This document shows positions 2,967 to 32,580 of a stretch of DNA of 56,799 nt, in pieces. Position 1 is the first letter of the stretch, and each line of letters begins with the position of its first letter. Source of the stretch: Herpetosiphonaceae bacterium (GTDB lineage: Bacteria; Chloroflexota; Chloroflexia; Chloroflexales; Herpetosiphonaceae); the NCBI GenBank assembly GCA_013538855.1, contig JABXJS010000117.1, forward strand, positions 1-56,799. The letters run 5' to 3'. The position numbers were made by a program, and so were the translations under genes. The notes under the pieces are model-generated. The model searched no databases. It was not told the DNA's origin and saw only the letters and a program-made list of their open reading frames with translations.

Positions 2967-4010
2967 ATGGAGCGACGCACGGTTCTGATTACTGGTGTGG
3001 CTGGTCGGTGGGGCCGCCGCTTGGCCCGCCAGCTGGTGAAGTTTCCGATTGTGCGCGTGCTCGGGCTAGATATTCGTCAGCCCGAGCGCCCAGTCGATGG
3101 GGTCGAGTATATCGAGGCGGATCTGCGCAACCCGCTGCTGGTCGAGCTGCTGCGTACCGAGCAGGTCGAGGCAATTTTGCATATGGTCTTCGCCTCTGGT
3201 CTCGATCAGCGCGGAACACAGCTCTCAGCGGAGGATGCGTTCCAGATCAATGTGATGGGCACCATGGAGGTGCTGGCTGCGGCCCATGCCGCTGGTGTGC
3301 GGCAAGTGGTGCTGAAGAGCACCACGATGGTGTATGGGGCGCGCTTTAACAACCCGCTCTACCTCAACGAAGATGCGCCGCTACACGGCCAGGAGGGCAT
3401 GCCGAGCCTGCGCCAGCGCTATGAGATCGAAAAGTATGTGGCCGATTTTCGGCGCAATCACGATCTGCACATCGCTGTGCTGCGCTTTCCGGGCATCATC
3501 GGCAAATCCGGTGCCTCATCGCTGATGCAGTACCTGGGCCAGCCAACCCCCCCGATGCTGCTAGGCTTCGATCCGCTGTTTCAGGCAGTCCACGAGGCCG
3601 ATGTGATCGGCTCCGTGCTGCACGCCATGGCCAATGGCGCAAACGGCGTGTTCAACGTTGCCGCCGATGGCGTGATGCCTCTCTCGCGTATGATTCGCCA
3701 GGTCGGCCATCTCCCGCTGCCTATCCTGCACCCGCTGGCCTATAATCTTCAGCGCGTGCCTGGCGTGAAAAAGAATCCGCTGCTGCGCCGTGCTGTGCCC
3801 TTCGATCTGGATTTCTTGCGCTATCAGTGGGTTGCTGACACGAGCAAAATGCACACCGAACTAGAATATACGCCACAGTACACCCTCGATGAAGCCGTCG
3901 AGGATTTCCGCGGTGCGCTGCGCCTTAAGCGCTATGCAGATGTGCTGCCCCGCCGTTCTCTGTCGAATGGTATCCGTGCGTTTTTGAGCCGCTCTGGAAC
4001 GGCTGAGTAG
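2967..4010 (+). CDS. NAD-dependent epimerase/dehydratase (extended SDR family)
   Basis: The 347-residue protein has an N-terminal Rossmann fold with the nucleotide motif GVAGRWGRRLA (residues 10-20), the acidic turn LGLDIR, and an active-site YEIEK (Y-x-x-x-K) near residue 153, preceded by a KSTTMVYG segment supplying the catalytic Ser/Thr. Its substrate is probably a nucleotide sugar or similar diol, but cannot be read from sequence. It begins 9 bp after the Doc-like gene (AAGGAGCTACC) and ends 8 bp before the acyltransferase. Mycobacteria carry a comparable epimerase-acyltransferase neighbour pair (Rv0501/Rv0502), which supports a shared envelope-lipid role. Confidence 0.85.
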   Translation: MERRTVLITGVAGRWGRRLARQLVKFPIVRVLGLDIRQPERPVDGVEYIEADLRNPLLVELLRTEQVEAILHMVFASGLDQRGTQLSAEDAFQINVMGTMEVLAAAHAAGVRQVVLKSTTMVYGARFNNPLYLNEDAPLHGQEGMPSLRQRYEIEKYVADFRRNHDLHIAVLRFPGIIGKSGASSLMQYLGQPTPPMLLGFDPLFQAVHEADVIGSVLHAMANGANGVFNVAADGVMPLSRMIRQVGHLPLPILHPLAYNLQRVPGVKKNPLLRRAVPFDLDFLRYQWVADTSKMHTELEYTPQYTLDEAVEDFRGALRLKRYADVLPRRSLSNGIRAFLSRSGTAE

Positions 4011-4018
4011 GAGTTGTC

Positions 4019-5347
4019 ATGACTGAACAGGAAAATCCCAAACGCCGACGGCGCGCACGTGCTGAGGAGGTCAATGGATCTGAGCCGCAGTCGCCAGCCA
4101 CTCGGCCCGTTGAAACCATGGTCGATGTGACCGATGCGCCAGCTAGCGCTGATGTGTTGCCCGCCACCCTCGATGCTGCCACCGTGCAGCTGGTCGATGA
4201 GTCCGCCGCTACGCACGAATCCGCTGAGCCTGCGCTAACCGAAACTCCAATCGAGGTGAAAAACTTGGATCAGCCTGCAACACCTGCGCAAGCCCGCATC
4301 GACTCTTTGCTTGAGGCCCTGGAGGCTGAGATTCGCTCTATGCCCGCCGCCGACGAGGAGCGCCAGGGCGCAATCGCCGAGGTGATCCACCTGATTCGCG
4401 CTTCGATCACGCGCTGGCCCAAGAAGGTGCTCGAGGGCGTGGTCTCCACGCTGCGCGCCAATATCAAGAGCGATTATCTCGATGCGGATTTCTGGAAGGG
4501 CATTGCGCTTGTGCTGCGCTATCAGCTCGATGCCAATGTCGATATGCTGCGCCGCCGCTGGAATGGCGACTATGCCGTCGATGAGTTTGGCCTCGACTAT
4601 GAGCTGGTGCAGCTGACTATTCCGCTGCTCACGTTCTTGTACCGCAAGTACTGGCGCGTCGAGGCCCGTGGCCTGGAACACGTGCCCGATGATCAGCGCG
4701 CGCTGCTGGTGTGCAATCACTCCGGCGTGCTGCCCTGGGATGGCGCCATGGTTGGCGCGGCGCTGTACTTCGATCATCCCGCTGGACGCATTTTGCGCAA
4801 TCTGCACCTGAGCTGGTTCTCATCGCTGCCTTTTGTGGCCCCGCTGCTATCGCGGCTTGGCCAGGTGCAGGCGCTGCCCGCCAACGCCGAGCGCCTGCTC
4901 GAGCGCGATGAGCTGGTCGGTGTGTTTCCCGAGGGCCTCAAGGGCGTCGGCAAGCTGTTCCGTGATCGCTATAAGCTGGCTCGCTTTGGCCGCGGCGGCT
5001 TTGTGAAGGTCGCTGTGAAAACCGGCGCGCCCATTATTCCTGTCGCCATCGTCGGCGGCGAGGAGATCCATCCGAACTTGTACAATGTGAAGCCAGTGGC
5101 TAAGCTGCTGGGCTTCCCGTACTTCCCGATTACGCCAACCTTCCCCATCCTTGGGCCGCTCGGGCTGATCCCGCTGCCAAGCAAGTGGTACATTACCTTC
5201 TGCGAGCCGATCGAGACGGCACACTTGGGCAGCGAGCGCGCCGAGGACCCGCTGCTGATCTCACAGCTCACCGAGCAGGTGCGCTCCACCATCCAGAGCA
5301 CGATCTTGGAGGTGCTTAAGGAGCGGCCCGGCGTCTTCGTCGGCTAA
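4019..5347 (+). CDS. PlsC-type lysophospholipid acyltransferase
   Basis: The 442-residue protein has a disordered, acidic Ala/Pro-rich N-terminus (about 1-85), a helical region (90-205) and a PlsC acyltransferase domain (about 210-430). The catalytic block NHSGVLPWDGAM near residue 233 is a variant of the family NHxxxxD motif, and FPEGLKG near residue 303 is the second signature block. It should transfer acyl chains to a glycerol- or lysophospholipid at the cytoplasmic membrane. The long N-terminal extension and NHSG variant match the Rv0502-like subgroup. TAGGAG precedes the ATG, and it is co-oriented with and close to the epimerase. Confidence 0.85.
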   Translation: MTEQENPKRRRRARAEEVNGSEPQSPATRPVETMVDVTDAPASADVLPATLDAATVQLVDESAATHESAEPALTETPIEVKNLDQPATPAQARIDSLLEALEAEIRSMPAADEERQGAIAEVIHLIRASITRWPKKVLEGVVSTLRANIKSDYLDADFWKGIALVLRYQLDANVDMLRRRWNGDYAVDEFGLDYELVQLTIPLLTFLYRKYWRVEARGLEHVPDDQRALLVCNHSGVLPWDGAMVGAALYFDHPAGRILRNLHLSWFSSLPFVAPLLSRLGQVQALPANAERLLERDELVGVFPEGLKGVGKLFRDRYKLARFGRGGFVKVAVKTGAPIIPVAIVGGEEIHPNLYNVKPVAKLLGFPYFPITPTFPILGPLGLIPLPSKWYITFCEPIETAHLGSERAEDPLLISQLTEQVRSTIQSTILEVLKERPGVFVG

Positions 5348-7231: not shown

Positions 7232-7261
7232 TTGGCGCTTGCCCGCTGTGCGGCGTATAAT
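7232..7261 (+). promoter_or_regulatory. candidate promoter of the 164-residue protein gene
   Basis: TTGGCG (7232-7237) and a consensus TATAAT (7256-7261) are separated by 18 nt. The start codon follows at 7292, and the preceding terminator isolates this as a monocistronic unit. Confidence 0.65.
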
Positions 7262-24328: not shown

Positions 24329-25366
24329 CTACTCTAGGTAGGCGCGGAGATGCTGGCCGACGTCGGGCTGGCGCAGGTGGCGCATGGCCTCGGCCTCGAT
24401 CTGGCGCGTGCGCTCGCGCGTGATGCCGAACTCGGCGCCAACTTCCTCGAGCGTGCGGCGCTTGCCATCGGAGAGGCCGTAGCGCATAGCCAAGATCTGG
24501 CGCTCGCGATCCGGCAGCTGTGACAGGGCATCGTGCAGCTCGTCGAGCAGCATGGTGCGCGTTGCTTGCTCGAGCGGTGCTTCAAGATTATCATCGGCCA
24601 AAAATTCGCCGACGCGGCCCTGCCCGTCCTTGCCCACAGGCTGCTCGAGCGAGATTGGCTGGACGGCGGCGTTGAGCATACGCTTAATCTTGCGCATGCT
24701 GACGCCGAGCGCGTCGGCCAGCTCCTCAGGTGTTGGCTCGCGCTGGAGCGCCTGCTCGAGCTGATAGGCGACCTTGCGCATCTGGGCGATGGATTCGCTG
24801 AGGTGCACCGGCAGCCGGATTGTGCGGCTCTGCTCGGCGATCGCCCGTGTGACCGCCTGGCGAATCCACCAGGTAGCGTAGGTTGAGAAGCGATTGCCTT
24901 TGCGGTAATCGAACTTCTCGACGGCGCGCATCAGACCAATGTTGCCCTCTTGGATCAAGTCCATAAAGGACATGTGGTTGCCGATGTACTTTTTGGCGAC
25001 ACTCACCACAAGGCGTAGGTTGGCCTGTGTGAGCCGACGACGAGCCTCTTCGCCCTGCTGCGCTTGGCGCACGAGGCGTGTGCGCTCGTCCCAGGGGAAG
25101 GTTTTATCGGAGTTGAGCAGCTGCTCGGCTTTACGCCCAGCCTCAATTGCCTTGGCTAGCTCGACCTCTTCCTCGGCTGTGAGCAGATTGACCTCGCCGA
25201 TCTCGCGCAGGTACATCTGCACAGAGTCCTCCAGCGTCTCGGCGTGAAGGGTTTTACGGCGGCGTGACGCCATATCTTCCTGCTCTTGCTCGCCGCCGAA
25301 CGTGTCGTTTGCCCACGCCGCATCGTACATAGTATCTCGACTCTGTATGTTTTGTTTTTTCATCAT
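24329..25366 (-). CDS. RNA polymerase sigma factor, primary-like (RpoD/SigA family)
   Basis: The 345-residue protein has a short region 1.2 ([21 protein letters not shown]), region 2 with [34 protein letters not shown] and [17 protein letters not shown] (-10 recognition and melting), region 3, and region 4 with [15 protein letters not shown] and the helix-turn-helix [20 protein letters not shown] (-35 recognition). It lacks a long N-terminal region 1.1, so it may be a compact SigA or a group 2 factor. The ribosome binding site is weak (GAGTTGATGC). The leader is about 210 nt, and a palindrome overlaps the promoter. Confidence 0.92.
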
Positions 25367-25580: not shown

Positions 25581-25609
25581 AGTATAGCAGGTATATTGAT
25601 AACTATCAA
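25581..25609 (-). promoter_or_regulatory. promoter of the sigma factor gene with overlapping palindrome
   Basis: On the minus strand TTGATA (25609-25604) and TATACT (25586-25581, preceded by TGC) are 17 nt apart. The -35 hexamer is one half of the inverted repeat TTGATA-AC-TATCAA (25596-25609), so a dimeric repressor bound there would block the promoter. The transcript would have a leader of about 210 nt. Confidence 0.6.
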
Positions 25610-25770: not shown

Positions 25771-25799
25771 TTGCAAACGCTAAACCCATCCGCTATAAT
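25771..25799 (+). promoter_or_regulatory. consensus-like promoter reading antisense into rpmB
   Basis: TTGCAA (25771-25776) and TATAAT (25794-25799) are 17 nt apart. Transcription would begin in the hairpin at 25800-25839 and run antisense through rpmB toward the Asp23-like gene at 26218. Confidence 0.55.
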
Positions 25800-25839
25800 G
25801 CGTTGCGGTCAACAGCCCAGGCTGTGGTGACCGCAACGC
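25800..25839. terminator. long hairpin at the 3' end of rpmB
   Basis: GCGTTGCGGTCA (25800-25811) pairs exactly with TGACCGCAACGC (25828-25839), and ACAGCC/GGCTGT can extend the stem inward. It lies 19 nt after the rpmB stop on the minus strand and has no clear U-tract. On the plus strand it would be the 5' end of the transcript from 25771-25799. Confidence 0.6.
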
Positions 25840-25858
25840 CAGCGGCAAAACCGAAGCA

Positions 25859-26041
25859 TTAGCGGTCTTTGTACATGGTACGCATGTAGCGTGTGCTGAC
25901 CTTCATGCGCTTCATTTGGCCATCGACTTCGACCCACGCCCACTGAATATTGGGCTTCCAAGAGCGCTTGGTGCGGTTCTTGGCGTGGCTCACGTTATTT
26001 CCAAATGAGCGCTTCTTGCCGGTCATCTGGCAAACAGCCAT
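25859..26041 (-). CDS. rpmB: 50S ribosomal protein L28
   Basis: The 60-residue basic protein matches L28: it starts [22 protein letters not shown]-like, continues with [18 protein letters not shown] and ends [10 protein letters not shown]. It is a large-subunit protein. TAGGAGG lies 10 nt before the ATG and is partly inside the palindrome CCTATAGCTATAGG. It is a single-gene unit with its own promoter (26104-26132) and a 3' hairpin, divergent from the Asp23-like gene. Confidence 0.93.
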
Positions 26042-26051
26042 CGGTATACCT

Positions 26052-26065
26052 CCTATAGCTATAGG
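26052..26065 (-). promoter_or_regulatory. palindrome covering the rpmB Shine-Dalgarno
   Basis: CCTATAGCTATAGG is an exact 14-bp palindrome whose last bases are the start of the AGGAGG ribosome binding site of rpmB. It could act as an operator or as a weak RNA hairpin limiting initiation. Confidence 0.4.
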
Positions 26066-26103
26066 TAGAATCCACGTTAAAAGTGGTAGTGCAAATGCAC
26101 CTG

Positions 26104-26132
26104 ACTATACCATAGGACGCGCATGCGAGCAA
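26104..26132 (-). promoter_or_regulatory. promoter of rpmB
   Basis: On the minus strand TTGCTC (26132-26127) and TATAGT (26109-26104) are 17 nt apart, with the start codon about 60 nt downstream. Confidence 0.6.
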
Positions 26133-26217
26133 GGTGTCTCGACGAGGGCTGATATACCACACCTGGATTGTGTGTATGGTCGGCAATTGCCTGCCATTTC
26201 TTTTTTAGGAGCAGACT

Positions 26218-26679
26218 GTGAACGGAAAAAATGTGCTGGCGAATGTTCGTCAGACAGCTGCGGGGCGGATAGAGGTCTCCTCTCGCGCCATCGCCACCAC
26301 AGTTGCACAGGCGGTTACCCGCTGCTATGGTGTGGTGGGCATGGCACCCAAAAATCTACGCGACAGTGTGGCCAATGTCCTGCGGCCAGAAGATCAATAT
26401 AAAGGCATCGATGTGCATATTAACGCCGAACAGGTGACGATTGACCTGTATGTGGTGATTGAGTATGGTACGCGAATTGCCACTGTTGCCCGTAATATTA
26501 TGGAGAATGTGCACTATGCAGTCGAGCAGGCCTTAGGCAAAACCTCGACCACGGTTAATGTGCATGTTCAGGCGCTACGCATTGAGAAAGTGGCCGATGC
26601 CGAGAGCCAAGGCGGCCGCTGGCGACGATTTGGTACGATGGGAGGCTTGCGTGGACAGCGCGACGAATCAACCAATTGA
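26218..26679 (+). CDS. Asp23/Gls24 family protein (DUF322)
   Basis: The 153-residue protein starts at a GTG preceded by TTAGGAGCAGACT. It has the Asp23 pattern: GRIEVSSRAIATTVAQAVTR near the start, GVVGMAPKN, then ITIDLYVVIEYG-like strands (VTIDLYVVIEYGTRI) and the NVHVQALRIE C-terminal strand. These proteins are often encoded just before a DhaL-type kinase gene, as here, and in Firmicutes are linked to the envelope and fatty acid metabolism. Its 3' end overlaps fakA by 29 bp, so the two are translationally coupled. Confidence 0.88.
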   Translation: MNGKNVLANVRQTAAGRIEVSSRAIATTVAQAVTRCYGVVGMAPKNLRDSVANVLRPEDQYKGIDVHINAEQVTIDLYVVIEYGTRIATVARNIMENVHYAVEQALGKTSTTVNVHVQALRIEKVADAESQGGRWRRFGTMGGLRGQRDESTN

Positions 26680-28288
26680 TGGACGAACGCTGCTGAATGC
26701 GTTTCAAGCGGCAGCGACATGGTTTGCGTCCAATGTTCAACATGTCAACGCGCTCAATGTCTTTCCTGTCCCCGACGGTGATACCGGTACCAATATGAAT
26801 CTGACGCTGCAGGCCGCGCTCAAGGACGTGCAGCCCGATGGCAACGCTGGCGTGGTGGCCGAGCGCGTCTACCGTGGTGCGCTGATGGGCGCACGTGGTA
26901 ACTCGGGCGTGATTCTCTCGCAGATTTTGCGCGGGCTGGCCCACGGCATGGCTGGTCAGGCCACAATTACGCCAACAACGCTGGTGAATGCCCTTGAGCA
27001 GGCCGCGCAGACCGCCTATAAAGCCGTGATCAAGCCGGTTGAAGGCACCATGCTCACCGTCATTCGCGAGACCAGCGAGACGGCGCGGGCGGCATTCCAT
27101 GCTGATATGAGCTGGGGCGATCTGCTGAGCGTTGTGCTGCAAGGTGCCCGCGACTCGGTCGATCGCACGCCAACCCTGATGAAGCTGCTGCGTGATGCTG
27201 GCGTTGTCGACTCAGGCGGTGAGGGTTTGTTCGTGCTGTTTGAAGGGGTGACCGCCTATGCGCGGGGCGAAGTGCTGGAGCAAAAGGCCAGCCCGAGCGA
27301 TACGTTTGCCATGGCCTTTGATGATGTGCACAGCGACGATGATTTTGGCTACTGCACCAACTTTATGATTGAGGGCAGCGCCATTCCCTACGAGCAGGTG
27401 CGCACAACCCTGGCCGATATGGGCACCTCGGTGGTTGCTGTTGGCGATGAAACATTGGTTAAGGTGCATCTGCACACGCTGCGGCCTGGCGATGCGCTGA
27501 ACTACGCCGTTCAGTGGGGCAGCCTGAGCGCAATTGAGATCACCAACATGGATAATCAGCGCCGTGACTTACACGCGGCCAGCGGGCAGGCCACAGCTGT
27601 GGCGGAGCCAGAGCCGCCGACCACCGAGGTCACCGATGTTGGCGTTGTTGCGGTGGTGCCCGGCGATGGCTTCCGGCGCATCTTCCGCTCCTTGAATGTT
27701 GGCGCAGTCGTTACCGGCGGCCAGACGATGAACCCCTCCATCCAAGATTTGGTTGAGGCGGTTCAGGCGCTGCCGCAAGATACGGTGGTGATCTTGCCCA
27801 ACAACAGCAATGTAATTCTGGCAGCGCAGCAGGCCGCCCAGCTGACCCAAAAACGTCTTTATGTGCTGCCAACCAAGACGGTGCCGCAGGGCATGGCCGC
27901 GATGTTCGCCTTCAACTATGCCCTCGATGTCGAGGCCAATGTCGAGGCGATGCAGCGGGCGATCAGCAGCGTCACAACTGCTGAGATCACCACCGCCGTG
28001 CGCGACGCCAATGTGAACGGTATTGATGTGCGCGATGGGCAGACCATCGGCCTACTCGATGGCACGCTGGTCGAATCCGCTGATGATCCCACAGCCGTAA
28101 TCGATCAGGTGCTTGAGCGCATGGAACTCGATGCGCATGAGATTATCACCATCTACTATGGTGAGCAGTGCTCTGAGGACCAAGCGCAGACGCTGGCAGA
28201 GCATATCGCCACGCTGTACCCCGAGATTGATGTTGAGGTGCAGAGCGGCGGACAACCATTTTATGATTACATTCTTTCGGCAGAGTAA
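26651..28288 (+). CDS. fakA: fatty acid kinase catalytic subunit FakA (DhaL/YloV family)
   Basis: The 545-residue protein has an N-terminal DhaL kinase domain (about 1-200) with NVFPVPDGDTGTNMNLTL, whose acidic residues bind Mg-ATP, and GALMGARGNSGVILSQILRG. The middle domain contains DDFGYCTNFMIEG, and the C-terminal DegV-like part carries VAVVPGDGFRRIF and NNSNVILAAQQA. It phosphorylates fatty acids presented by FakB, feeding acyl-phosphate to phospholipid synthesis. The GTG at 26651 is chosen because GGGAGGCTTGC precedes it and the protein then starts as in homologues. Two fakB genes follow directly. Confidence 0.92.
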   Translation: MDSATNQPIDGRTLLNAFQAAATWFASNVQHVNALNVFPVPDGDTGTNMNLTLQAALKDVQPDGNAGVVAERVYRGALMGARGNSGVILSQILRGLAHGMAGQATITPTTLVNALEQAAQTAYKAVIKPVEGTMLTVIRETSETARAAFHADMSWGDLLSVVLQGARDSVDRTPTLMKLLRDAGVVDSGGEGLFVLFEGVTAYARGEVLEQKASPSDTFAMAFDDVHSDDDFGYCTNFMIEGSAIPYEQVRTTLADMGTSVVAVGDETLVKVHLHTLRPGDALNYAVQWGSLSAIEITNMDNQRRDLHAASGQATAVAEPEPPTTEVTDVGVVAVVPGDGFRRIFRSLNVGAVVTGGQTMNPSIQDLVEAVQALPQDTVVILPNNSNVILAAQQAAQLTQKRLYVLPTKTVPQGMAAMFAFNYALDVEANVEAMQRAISSVTTAEITTAVRDANVNGIDVRDGQTIGLLDGTLVESADDPTAVIDQVLERMELDAHEIITIYYGEQCSEDQAQTLAEHIATLYPEIDVEVQSGGQPFYDYILSAE

Positions 28289-28320
28289 ATGCTGCCGAAG
28301 ATGAGGAGTTTTTGTTGGTT

Positions 28321-29169
28321 ATGGCACGCGTCAAAATAATGACTGATAGCACTGCTGATCTGCCTGCCGACTTAGTCCAAGAGCTGAATATCACCGTTGT
28401 GCCTAGCTATATCCACTTCGGTGATCAGACGTTCCGGGCGGGAGTCGATATTACCAATGAGCAGTTCTATCGGCGACTTGCTGAAGGAGGGCCGTACCCG
28501 TACACGTCATCGCCGCCTCCAAGTGTTTTTGAGCAGTACTATCGCCAGTTCTCGCGCGAATACGAGGGCGTTCTGTCGATTCATCTCTCGCATAAGTTCA
28601 GCAGCATCTTTAAGTCGGCGACCATGGCTCGCGACAAGCTGCCTGCTTCGCTGACGCGCGTTGAGGTTATCGATAGCACCTCCACGTCGCTGGGGCTGGG
28701 GTTGATTGTGCTGGCGGCGGCGCGTGCGGCTCAGGCGGGTGGTTCGGTTGAAGAGGTGCATCGGATTGTGATGCACATGATTCAGCACACGCATGTGGTG
28801 TTTTTTGTTGACTCGATCGAGTACCTGGAGCGCAGCGGGCGACTGTCGCAGGCGACGGCAATGCTTGGCTCAATGCAGCGGATCAAGCCGCTGTTGATTC
28901 TTGATGAAGGCGAGATTGTGCCGTATGATCGCACACGCACCCGTGCGAAGGCGATCGAGGGCCTGTTTACCTTTATCGAGGACTTTCCCAATGTTGAGCA
29001 GGTTGCGATTATGCATAGCACGACGCCCGACGATGTCGAGAAGCTGCTTGAGAAGATCGATCCGATTTTTCCGCGCGAGCGGGTGATGGTGGCTGAGTAT
29101 GGGCCGACCCTAGGCGTACACCTTGGCCCTAATACCATGGGCGTGGCTGTCTATGAAGGCTATGAATAA
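28321..29169 (+). CDS. fakB: fatty-acid-binding DegV protein (FakB type), copy 1
   Basis: The 282-residue protein is a DegV-fold fatty acid carrier. It starts ARVKIMTDSTADLPADLV (DSTADL is the family hallmark), has IHLSHKFSSIFKSA and EVIDSTSTSLGLGL, a YLERSGRLSQ loop and a C-terminal GPTLGVHLGPNTMGVA. FakB holds a fatty acid so that FakA can phosphorylate it. Starts at 28312 and 28315 (TTG) are possible because AGGAG lies close to them; the ATG at 28321 gives the usual N-terminus. It lies 32 bp after fakA and 9 bp before copy 2. Confidence 0.9.
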   Translation: MARVKIMTDSTADLPADLVQELNITVVPSYIHFGDQTFRAGVDITNEQFYRRLAEGGPYPYTSSPPPSVFEQYYRQFSREYEGVLSIHLSHKFSSIFKSATMARDKLPASLTRVEVIDSTSTSLGLGLIVLAAARAAQAGGSVEEVHRIVMHMIQHTHVVFFVDSIEYLERSGRLSQATAMLGSMQRIKPLLILDEGEIVPYDRTRTRAKAIEGLFTFIEDFPNVEQVAIMHSTTPDDVEKLLEKIDPIFPRERVMVAEYGPTLGVHLGPNTMGVAVYEGYE

Positions 29170-29178
29170 GGAGGCTTT

Positions 29179-30015
29179 GTGACTATTCTTGTAACTGATA
29201 GCACCGCTGATATTCCGTCGGTGCTGGCGAAGTCGTTGGACATCCATGTTATTCCACTAACAGTGAACTTTGGTACGCAGTCGTTTGCTGATGGTGTCGA
29301 GATTACCAACGATCAGTTTTATAGTAAACTAGCCAGCTCCGATGCGCTGCCCACCACCTCGCAGCCAGCGGTCGGAGCCTTCAAGGAGCTGTACGAGCGC
29401 TTGGGCGCCAACGGCGAGCCGATTGTGTCCATCCACATCGCCGGTGAGCTGAGCGGCACGATTCGCTCGGCGCAGCAGGCCGCTGCGCTGCTGCCGGATC
29501 AGGATATTCGCATCATCGACTCGCGCAGCACCACGATGTCGCTTGGCTGGCCGACGGTGCTCGCAGCGCGCGCAGCCAAAGCAGGCAAGCCAGTCGATGA
29601 AATCGAGGCGCTGGTGCACGATACGATCGGCCGCACGCGCCTGCTGGCCATGCTCGACACGCTGCGCTACCTGGAGAAAGGCGGCCGCATTGGCCGCACG
29701 CGCGCGCTGCTCGGGACACTGCTGAGCGTTAAGCCGATCATTGATGTGCGCGACGGCGAGATCTTTCCTTTCGAGCAGGTGCGCACCAAGAAGAAGGCGC
29801 TGGCGCGCTTGATCGCGGTGGCCGAGGAGCTTGGCCCGTTCGATGAGCTGTGTGTGCTGCACTCGCGCTCCGAAGATGAGGCGCGCGCCCTGGCTCAGCA
29901 GCTCAGCCACATCCAGCCGGTCGATCAGATCGTCATCGCTGAGATTGGCGCGGTGGTGGGCACACATGTTGGCCCTGGCGCGCTTGGGTTCACAGGAGTG
30001 CAGAAGAAAGCGTAG
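29179..30015 (+). CDS. fakB: fatty-acid-binding DegV protein (FakB type), copy 2
   Basis: The 278-residue paralogue starts at a GTG with AAGGAGGCTTT before it. It shows TDSTADIPSVLAKSL, SIHIAGELSGTIRSAQQ, RIIDSRSTTMSLGW, YLEKGGRIGRT and AVVGTHVGPGALGFTG. The binding-pocket segments differ from copy 1 throughout, as expected if the two carriers prefer different fatty acids (known for FakB1 and FakB2 in Staphylococcus). It is the last gene of the Asp23-fakA-fakB-fakB operon and is followed by a terminator. Confidence 0.9.
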   Translation: MTILVTDSTADIPSVLAKSLDIHVIPLTVNFGTQSFADGVEITNDQFYSKLASSDALPTTSQPAVGAFKELYERLGANGEPIVSIHIAGELSGTIRSAQQAAALLPDQDIRIIDSRSTTMSLGWPTVLAARAAKAGKPVDEIEALVHDTIGRTRLLAMLDTLRYLEKGGRIGRTRALLGTLLSVKPIIDVRDGEIFPFEQVRTKKKALARLIAVAEELGPFDELCVLHSRSEDEARALAQQLSHIQPVDQIVIAEIGAVVGTHVGPGALGFTGVQKKA

Positions 30016-30084: not shown

Positions 30085-32580
30085 GTGAGTACTATGGGTG
30101 TTGTTGCGAAACAGGAGATTATTGAGCTGGGCAAGCTGCTAGCTGCTGAGGCCGAGGCCGACTTTGCCGATACGGCCGCTCCCGCTGGCTTGACGGCCTT
30201 TTTGCGCGAGTGGCAGACGACGGCGCAGGCGGCCCTGCACGAGCCAGCTGTGCGCGCTGTGCTCGATGCGCTCGATGGCTACTCGGATATGGTCCACGCT
30301 GAGCGCGAGGCGCGCCTGATGGTGGCGCTGGAGCGGCTGCGCGATCTATTTCGCCAGCCACCGCCGCGGCTGCAGGCCGATGCACCAACCATGCCCGCGC
30401 CTGATCTGAGCACGCCGCTGAAGCAGATCGCCGGTATTGGTGCTGCAACCGCGCGCTCATTTGCCAGATTGGGTGTTCACAGCGTCGAAGATTTGCTCTA
30501 TCATATTCCGCATCGCTACGATGACTACACGAAGCGCAAGCAGATCGCTGACTTAACGGTTGGCGAGGTCGAAACGGTCGTGGCGCAGATTGAGCAGGTC
30601 AAAACCTTTACAGCCAAGAGCCGCCAAGGCGTCGAGGTGGTTGTTGGCGATGAGAGCGGCATTCTGCGCGCCTCGTGGTTTCGGGGGCACTGGATGGCGC
30701 GGCAGTTTCGCACCGGCGCGCTGATTGTGCTCAGCGGCAAAGTAACGATCTTCCGCGATCAGAAGACCATGACGAATGCGCAGTGGGAGCCATTCGCCGA
30801 AGATGAGCTGATCCACACTGGCCGACTGGTGCCGGTGCATCCTTTAACGAAGGGCCTGCATGACCGCAATGCGCGCACCGTGATCAAGCAGGTCGTCGAC
30901 GCAGCGACACCGGGCATGCCCGATCCGCTGCCGGTTGAGCTGCGTGATCGCGCCGGACTGCTGCCGCTGGGCGTGGCTATCGCCCAGATCCACTTCCCCG
31001 ATAGCTGGCCGCTGCTTACACGCGCACGCCAGCGCCTGGGCTTTGATGAGTTCCTGTACATTCAGCTGGGCGTGCTGCGGCGCAAAAAGCTGTATCAGGG
31101 CACCAGCGGCCATCCAGTCAGCCCGAATGACGAGCTGCATAGCGCCTTTCTGGAGTCGCTGCCGTTTCAGCTGACTGGCGCACAGCAGCGTGCTATCCGC
31201 GAGATTCGCAGCGATATGAGCCAGTCGGTGCCCATGGCCCGACTTGTGCAGGGTGATGTGGGATCAGGTAAAACCGTTGTTGCAGCAGCGGCGCTGGTTC
31301 AGGCAGTGGCGGCAGGCTTCCAGGGTGCCCTTATGGCTCCAACCGAAATCTTAGCCGAGCAGCACTATCGTGGTTTAAAACAAATTTTAGGCCAGGTTAA
31401 TCTGCCCAATCGGCGCGCTGCGGAGCCACAGGACTGGCGCAGCCGCCAGGATGACAAGCGCCGCGAGCGCTTGGCCGAGATTAAGCAGCTGTTGCTGATG
31501 ACCGACGATGTCACGCCTGCCACTGGTATCCGCGTGGCGCTGCTCACGGGCAGCCTCAAGGCCCGCCAGCGCCGCGAGGCCCTGAAGCTGATCGCCGATG
31601 GCGAGGTTGATATCGTGATCGGCACACACGCGCTGATCCAAGACGCCGTTGACTTTCAAGCGCTGGGGCTGGCGGTGGTCGATGAGCAGCACCGCTTTGG
31701 GGTCGAGCAGCGCGAGGCGCTCAAGCGCAAGGGGTTTAATCCGCATCTGCTGGTGATGACAGCCACGCCAATTCCGCGCTCGCTGGCGCTGACGATCTAT
31801 GGCGACCTCGATGTCTCGGTGATTGACGAGCGCCCGCCAGGCCGCCAGCCAATCCAGACGCGCTGGATTCGCTCGACCGAGCGCGCGAAGGCCTACAAGC
31901 ACCTGCGGCGCGAGATCGGCAAAGGCCGCCAGGCATTTGTGATCTGCCCACTCGTCGAGGAAAGCGAAAAGCTGGAGGATGTTAAGGCGGCGGTCGAGGA
32001 GCACGAGCTGCTTCAGCATGAAGTGTTTCCCGACCTGCGCGTTGGCTTGATCCACGGCCGCATGACCTCGAACGAAAAAGACACAGTGATGACGCAGTTT
32101 CGTGACCGTGAGTTCGACATCCTTGTGGCTACCGCGGTGGTTGAGGTAGGCATCGACATTCCCAATGCCACCACGATTGTCATCGAGGGTGCCGAGCGCT
32201 TCGGCCTCGCCCAGCTGCACCAGTTTCGCGGCCGCGTCGGACGCGGCGAGCATCAGTCCTACTGTATTCTCATCAGCGATAAAGACGACAACGAGGTGAC
32301 AGCAACGCGGCTAACGGCCATGGAAGAGAGCGAAGACGGTTTCCGTCTAGCGGAGATCGATCTTGAGCTACGTGGCCCTGGTGAGTTCTTTGGGCACAGG
32401 CAGAGCGGCACCCCAGACCTGAAGGTCGCCCGTTTGGCTGACACGCGCTTGCTCCATGCCGCACGGATCGAGGCCGAGCGTATACTGCGCATCGATCCTG
32501 ATCTGGAGCACCCAGATCATTCTCTGTTGAAGGCCAACCTAGAGCGCTTCTGGGCTGCCGCCGCTGCGGAGGCGAACTAG
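30085..32580 (+). CDS. recG: ATP-dependent DNA helicase RecG
   Basis: The 831-residue protein has an N-terminal wedge/OB domain (about 115-280, with GIGAATARSFARLGVHSVED and VVGDESGILRASWFRG) and the helicase core. Walker A is GDVGSGKTVVA near residue 390, motif II is the RecG-type DEQHRFG near 533, motif III is TATPIPRSL, and motif VI lies in QFRGRVGRGEHQSYC. RecG remodels stalled forks and Holliday junctions. An extra ~100-residue N-terminal helical region precedes the wedge. Start GTG 30085 has TGAGG at good spacing; ATG 30094 is the alternative. Confidence 0.95.
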   Translation: MSTMGVVAKQEIIELGKLLAAEAEADFADTAAPAGLTAFLREWQTTAQAALHEPAVRAVLDALDGYSDMVHAEREARLMVALERLRDLFRQPPPRLQADAPTMPAPDLSTPLKQIAGIGAATARSFARLGVHSVEDLLYHIPHRYDDYTKRKQIADLTVGEVETVVAQIEQVKTFTAKSRQGVEVVVGDESGILRASWFRGHWMARQFRTGALIVLSGKVTIFRDQKTMTNAQWEPFAEDELIHTGRLVPVHPLTKGLHDRNARTVIKQVVDAATPGMPDPLPVELRDRAGLLPLGVAIAQIHFPDSWPLLTRARQRLGFDEFLYIQLGVLRRKKLYQGTSGHPVSPNDELHSAFLESLPFQLTGAQQRAIREIRSDMSQSVPMARLVQGDVGSGKTVVAAAALVQAVAAGFQGALMAPTEILAEQHYRGLKQILGQVNLPNRRAAEPQDWRSRQDDKRRERLAEIKQLLLMTDDVTPATGIRVALLTGSLKARQRREALKLIADGEVDIVIGTHALIQDAVDFQALGLAVVDEQHRFGVEQREALKRKGFNPHLLVMTATPIPRSLALTIYGDLDVSVIDERPPGRQPIQTRWIRSTERAKAYKHLRREIGKGRQAFVICPLVEESEKLEDVKAAVEEHELLQHEVFPDLRVGLIHGRMTSNEKDTVMTQFRDREFDILVATAVVEVGIDIPNATTIVIEGAERFGLAQLHQFRGRVGRGEHQSYCILISDKDDNEVTATRLTAMEESEDGFRLAEIDLELRGPGEFFGHRQSGTPDLKVARLADTRLLHAARIEAERILRIDPDLEHPDHSLLKANLERFWAAAAAEAN

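Follow-up and report, generated by a model that had tools for sequence, protein, structure and literature searches.

In a bacterium of the family Herpetosiphonaceae (Chloroflexota), a sigma-70-type promoter motif lies beyond the far end of rpmB, the gene of ribosomal protein L28, and points through it toward the divergent operon asp23-fakA-degV-degV-recG. This motif is probably the main housekeeping promoter of the operon (we put the probability at roughly 0.7), and it would give the operon mRNA a leader of about 0.4 kb antisense to rpmB. Judged by comparison of related sequences, the far-side promoter with its predicted antisense leader is a lineage-specific, conserved arrangement of the excludon type. 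We analysed a stretch of 56,799 nucleotides (contig JABXJS010000117.1, assembly GCA_013538855.1), called the window below. Its genome belongs to the family of Herpetosiphon, but to a different genus. The locus contains the following features:

24329–25366, minus strand: gene of the sigma-70 family, the left neighbour
25771–25776, plus strand: −35 element TTGCAA
25794–25799, plus strand: −10 element TATAAT, 17-nt spacer from the −35 element
25800–25839: inverted repeat that overlaps the predicted start, read as the rpmB terminator region
25806–26217, plus strand: predicted leader of the asp23-operon mRNA, its start predicted from sequence
25859–26041, minus strand: rpmB, ribosomal protein L28 (PF00830)
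26104–26132, minus strand: promoter-like site of rpmB itself, TTGCTC-17-TATAGT, pointing toward the antisense promoter
26218–26679, plus strand: asp23, first gene of the operon (PF03780)
26651–28288, plus strand: fakA-like gene (PF13684, PF02734), start codon provisional
28312–29169, plus strand: degV, first copy (PF02645)
29179–30015, plus strand: degV, second copy (PF02645)
30085–32580, plus strand: recG (PF17191, RecG wedge; PF19833, RecG domain 3)

An earlier note on this DNA had described a TTGCAA-17-TATAAT motif pointing at the 3' side of rpmB. We confirmed it at 25771–25799 on the plus strand, from where it points through rpmB. On both strands of the whole window, TTGNNN-(16–18)-TATAAT has two matches, this site and one at 7232. 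In the complete genome (6.3 Mb), the pattern TTGCN{18,20}TATAAT was found 52 times, versus 5 times for the backward control. Thus, about nine in ten of these matches are above chance. The site therefore combines a TTGNNN element, a spacer of 16–18 nt, a TATAAT element and an occurrence above chance, as is characteristic of a sigma-70-type promoter. A longer pattern that extends from the −35 element to 9 nt past the −10 element had a single match in each of eight of the nine genomes of the same family. The search covered 82 genomes, and the 73 outside the family gave no match.

We surveyed the surroundings of rpmB across the phylum. A locus was considered linked when asp23, fakA, degV or recG lay to the right of rpmB on the plus strand within 3 kb. 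On the plus strand, the region from 400 nt before the rpmB stop to about 40 nt beyond it was scanned for the strict motif TTGNNN-(16–18)-TATAAT, which would miss weaker promoters. The order is understood here as the grouping of the genome collection surveyed; NCBI places Herpetosiphon in a separate order, Herpetosiphonales. Eight genomes of the order with rpmB matches were left out of the survey (G029, G033, G037, G042, G054, G056, G058 and G078). It turned out that 58 of the 61 linked loci of the order, where rpmB is divergent from the operon, carry the promoter 3' of rpmB. These 58 loci span all four families of the order and 27 genera, as counted by the genus labels of the collection. The promoter was found in none of the 25 unlinked rpmB loci of the order, one of which (L091) offers just 114 nt 3' of rpmB. 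Since the loci are related by descent, the survey counts are not independent. Elsewhere in the surveyed loci, the strict motif occurs 7 times in 455,916 bp on both strands. The spacer is 17 nt in 53 of the positive loci and 18 nt in five, and the fourth position of the −35 element is C in 54 of the 58, the TTG itself being fixed by the definition of the scan. The three linked loci of the order without the strict motif are L016, L114 and L105, the last with 89 nt of sequence there. In L016, which lacks a full far-side promoter, the rpmB-degV gap is 369 nt, much longer than in its genus mates, and contains repeat-like sequence. Leader and gap lengths end at the BLAST hit instead of the start codon. 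Outside the order, the promoter was found in 1 of 18 linked and 0 of 6 unlinked loci of the same class, and in 0 of 17 linked and 0 of 3 unlinked loci of other classes. The rpmB-operon pair itself is common there (18 of 24 fetched loci in the same class, 17 of 20 in other classes). The comparison therefore suggests that the pair is probably the ancestral state, to which the order probably added the far-side promoter later.

The comparison of loci indicates that the promoter follows the operon rather than rpmB, and for this reason the operon promoter is the best-supported reading of the motif. We examined five genomes of the order in which rpmB is missing ahead of the operon, and in three of them (G046, G053 and G073) the promoter was present upstream of the operon. 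It lies at 2591 with the asp23 match starting from 2779 in the first of the corresponding loci (L138), at 3977 with degV at 4303 in the second (L139), and at 3463 with degV at 3667 in the third (L140). In the remaining two genomes, G036 and G070 of one genus, the promoter was not found upstream of the operon. In the leaders of L139 and L140, just ahead of degV, a GGCCAG-type hairpin precedes a plus-strand T-run, and the two might form an attenuator. The gene beyond the promoter varies (a sigma factor, a class IV aminotransferase, an ABC ATPase, a Ham1 family gene), and the promoter is constant. In the window, the sigma-70-family gene at this place has a promoter-like site of its own, TTGATA-17-TATACT at 25609–25581 with TG preceding the −10 element; in related loci, a comparable site can be read at the same place. 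The earlier note had offered the real promoter of the fak operon with an excludon-like leader as one of three possibilities, and the distribution of the motif over linked and unlinked loci argues for this one.

The other two possibilities were an antisense regulator of rpmB and an unannotated small RNA. An antisense RNA dedicated to the regulation of rpmB, ending short of the operon, would be complementary to rpmB over its full length, and it is beside rpmB that the promoter stands in 58 of the 61 linked loci of the order. However, at all 25 rpmB loci of the order that are not next to the operon the promoter is missing, and in three of the five genomes without rpmB in front it is kept upstream of the operon. 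T-runs that could end such an RNA on the plus strand are also scarce: at least five T in the 10 nt after the hairpin were found in 4 of 61 loci. We consider this explanation quite improbable. A short structured small RNA from 25806 to the hairpin is more doubtful still, even though in Herpetosiphonaceae the predicted start falls at the beginning of the inverted repeat and both arms of the repeat are largely kept. Downstream of the start, families differ in sequence, and the hairpin stands at variable distances from the start. In three loci (L020–L022), the hairpin is beyond the promoter as seen from rpmB, so that the start has no hairpin after it, which argues against a small RNA. At the gathering score, Rfam gave no matches in the window and none in 14 related loci.

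The hairpin itself is more likely the rpmB terminator region, which the leader would read in reverse. Its arms, 25800–25814 and 25825–25839, are 93% complementary. The earlier note had assumed a stable hairpin at the very start of the RNA. The plus strand does fold there, at −15.4 kcal/mol for the first hairpin of an RNA starting near 25806; yet this is unexceptional against shuffled sequences (z −1.0), and with this start the left arm would lose about 6 nt at its outer end, which lie upstream of the 5' end, so the hairpin would be incompletely contained in the RNA. The minus-strand version of the region, by contrast, is exceptional against shuffles (z −3.5). When the best hairpin was sought within 150 nt 3' of rpmB, it stood between the promoter and the gene in 53 of 58 loci. 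On the rpmB side of the hairpin, 25 of 61 loci have at least five T in 12 nt, a wider window than the 10 nt used on the plus side. Since this U-tract is weak in Herpetosiphonaceae, we infer the terminator there rather than read it directly. That the hairpin stabilises the 5' end of the RNA was also considered, an idea weakened by its variable distance from the start in other families and by L020–L022, where it does not follow the start. In the family of Chloroflexus, in many of the loci L012–L032, the terminator hairpin of rpmB hardly varies (GGCCAG.GTCC ... GGACACTGGCC), a conservation beyond what a terminator needs. In several genera, the −10 element adjoins the terminator hairpin, and the whole motif might be taken for a chance by-product of the terminator tail with no promoter at all. 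We rejected this, and regard it as extremely unlikely, because the −35 element and the 17-nt spacing are conserved too and because the promoter is on the opposite side of the hairpin in L020–L022. The genomes that keep the promoter without rpmB and the unlinked rpmB loci that lack it speak against a by-product as well.

Another promoter in the gap between rpmB and asp23 could be the main driver of the operon, with the far-side site minor or second. Herpetosiphonaceae gaps do contain weak sites (7–8 of 12), and because of them a second promoter is possible. Sites of at least 9 of 12 are commoner outside the order, in 12 of 18 linked loci of the same class and 6 of 17 of other classes. In the order, however, plus-strand gap sites of this quality occur in 6 of 61 loci, and many gaps are just 80–160 nt long and are occupied by rpmB's own promoter. 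On balance, it is unlikely that a gap promoter is the main one. The rpmB promoter has an equivalent in 59 of the 61 linked loci of the order, and two promoter motifs thus face each other across rpmB.

If the far-side motif is the operon promoter, the operon mRNA would start near 25806, 3' of the divergent rpmB. We infer that transcription would continue from there into asp23. The leader of about 0.4 kb would read through the hairpin at 25800–25839 and would be antisense to the rpmB promoter and the complete rpmB gene. Being untranslated, it might be terminated early by Rho. The overlap may couple the expression of L28 and the operon through polymerase collision and cutting by RNase III. It is conceivable, as a tentative suggestion, that the full overlap makes the two units mutually exclusive and links ribosome assembly with membrane-lipid and DNA-repair genes throughout the order, and that rpmB has been retained inside the leader by selection from the base of the order onward.

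Two known arrangements resemble this one (PMC7154746). In excludons of the long 5' UTR type in Listeria, a long operon leader runs antisense through a divergent neighbour. In the noncontiguous operon menE-menC-MW1733-ytkD-MW1731 of S. aureus, an opposite-strand gene lies wholly inside the operon transcript. In both, the units interfere with each other via collision and RNase III (PMC7154746). By its geometry, in the window and in 58 of the 61 linked loci of the order, the rpmB-operon case belongs with the excludons of the 5' overlap type. Like them, the predicted RNA would be both mRNA and antisense RNA; the comparison is one of promoter geometry alone. It differs from the excludons described there in that the entire neighbour gene and its promoter would lie inside the leader, and in that the neighbour is a ribosomal protein gene. 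With the noncontiguous operon it shares an opposite-strand gene wholly inside the predicted operon transcript. In contrast to that operon, rpmB is in the predicted leader ahead of the first gene, and to the left of rpmB there is no operon gene, but the sigma-70-family gene on the minus strand. In the literature searches made, we found no earlier description of an operon promoter on the far side of rpmB.

Antisense promoters are mostly regarded as noise with little conservation. The promoter studied here occurs in 27 genera, at 58 of 61 linked loci of the order, and follows the operon, and it is thus a clean test case for selection on antisense leaders. The results suggest that, in this order, the promoter of this operon should be looked for on the far side of rpmB.

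Outside the order, a different site was noticed on the near side. In six of the 18 linked loci of the same class (L061, L062, L063, L065, L069 and L070), the gap carries TTTACG-17-TATNAT on the plus strand, 14–27 nt upstream of rpmB, which is a candidate promoter of the operon there.
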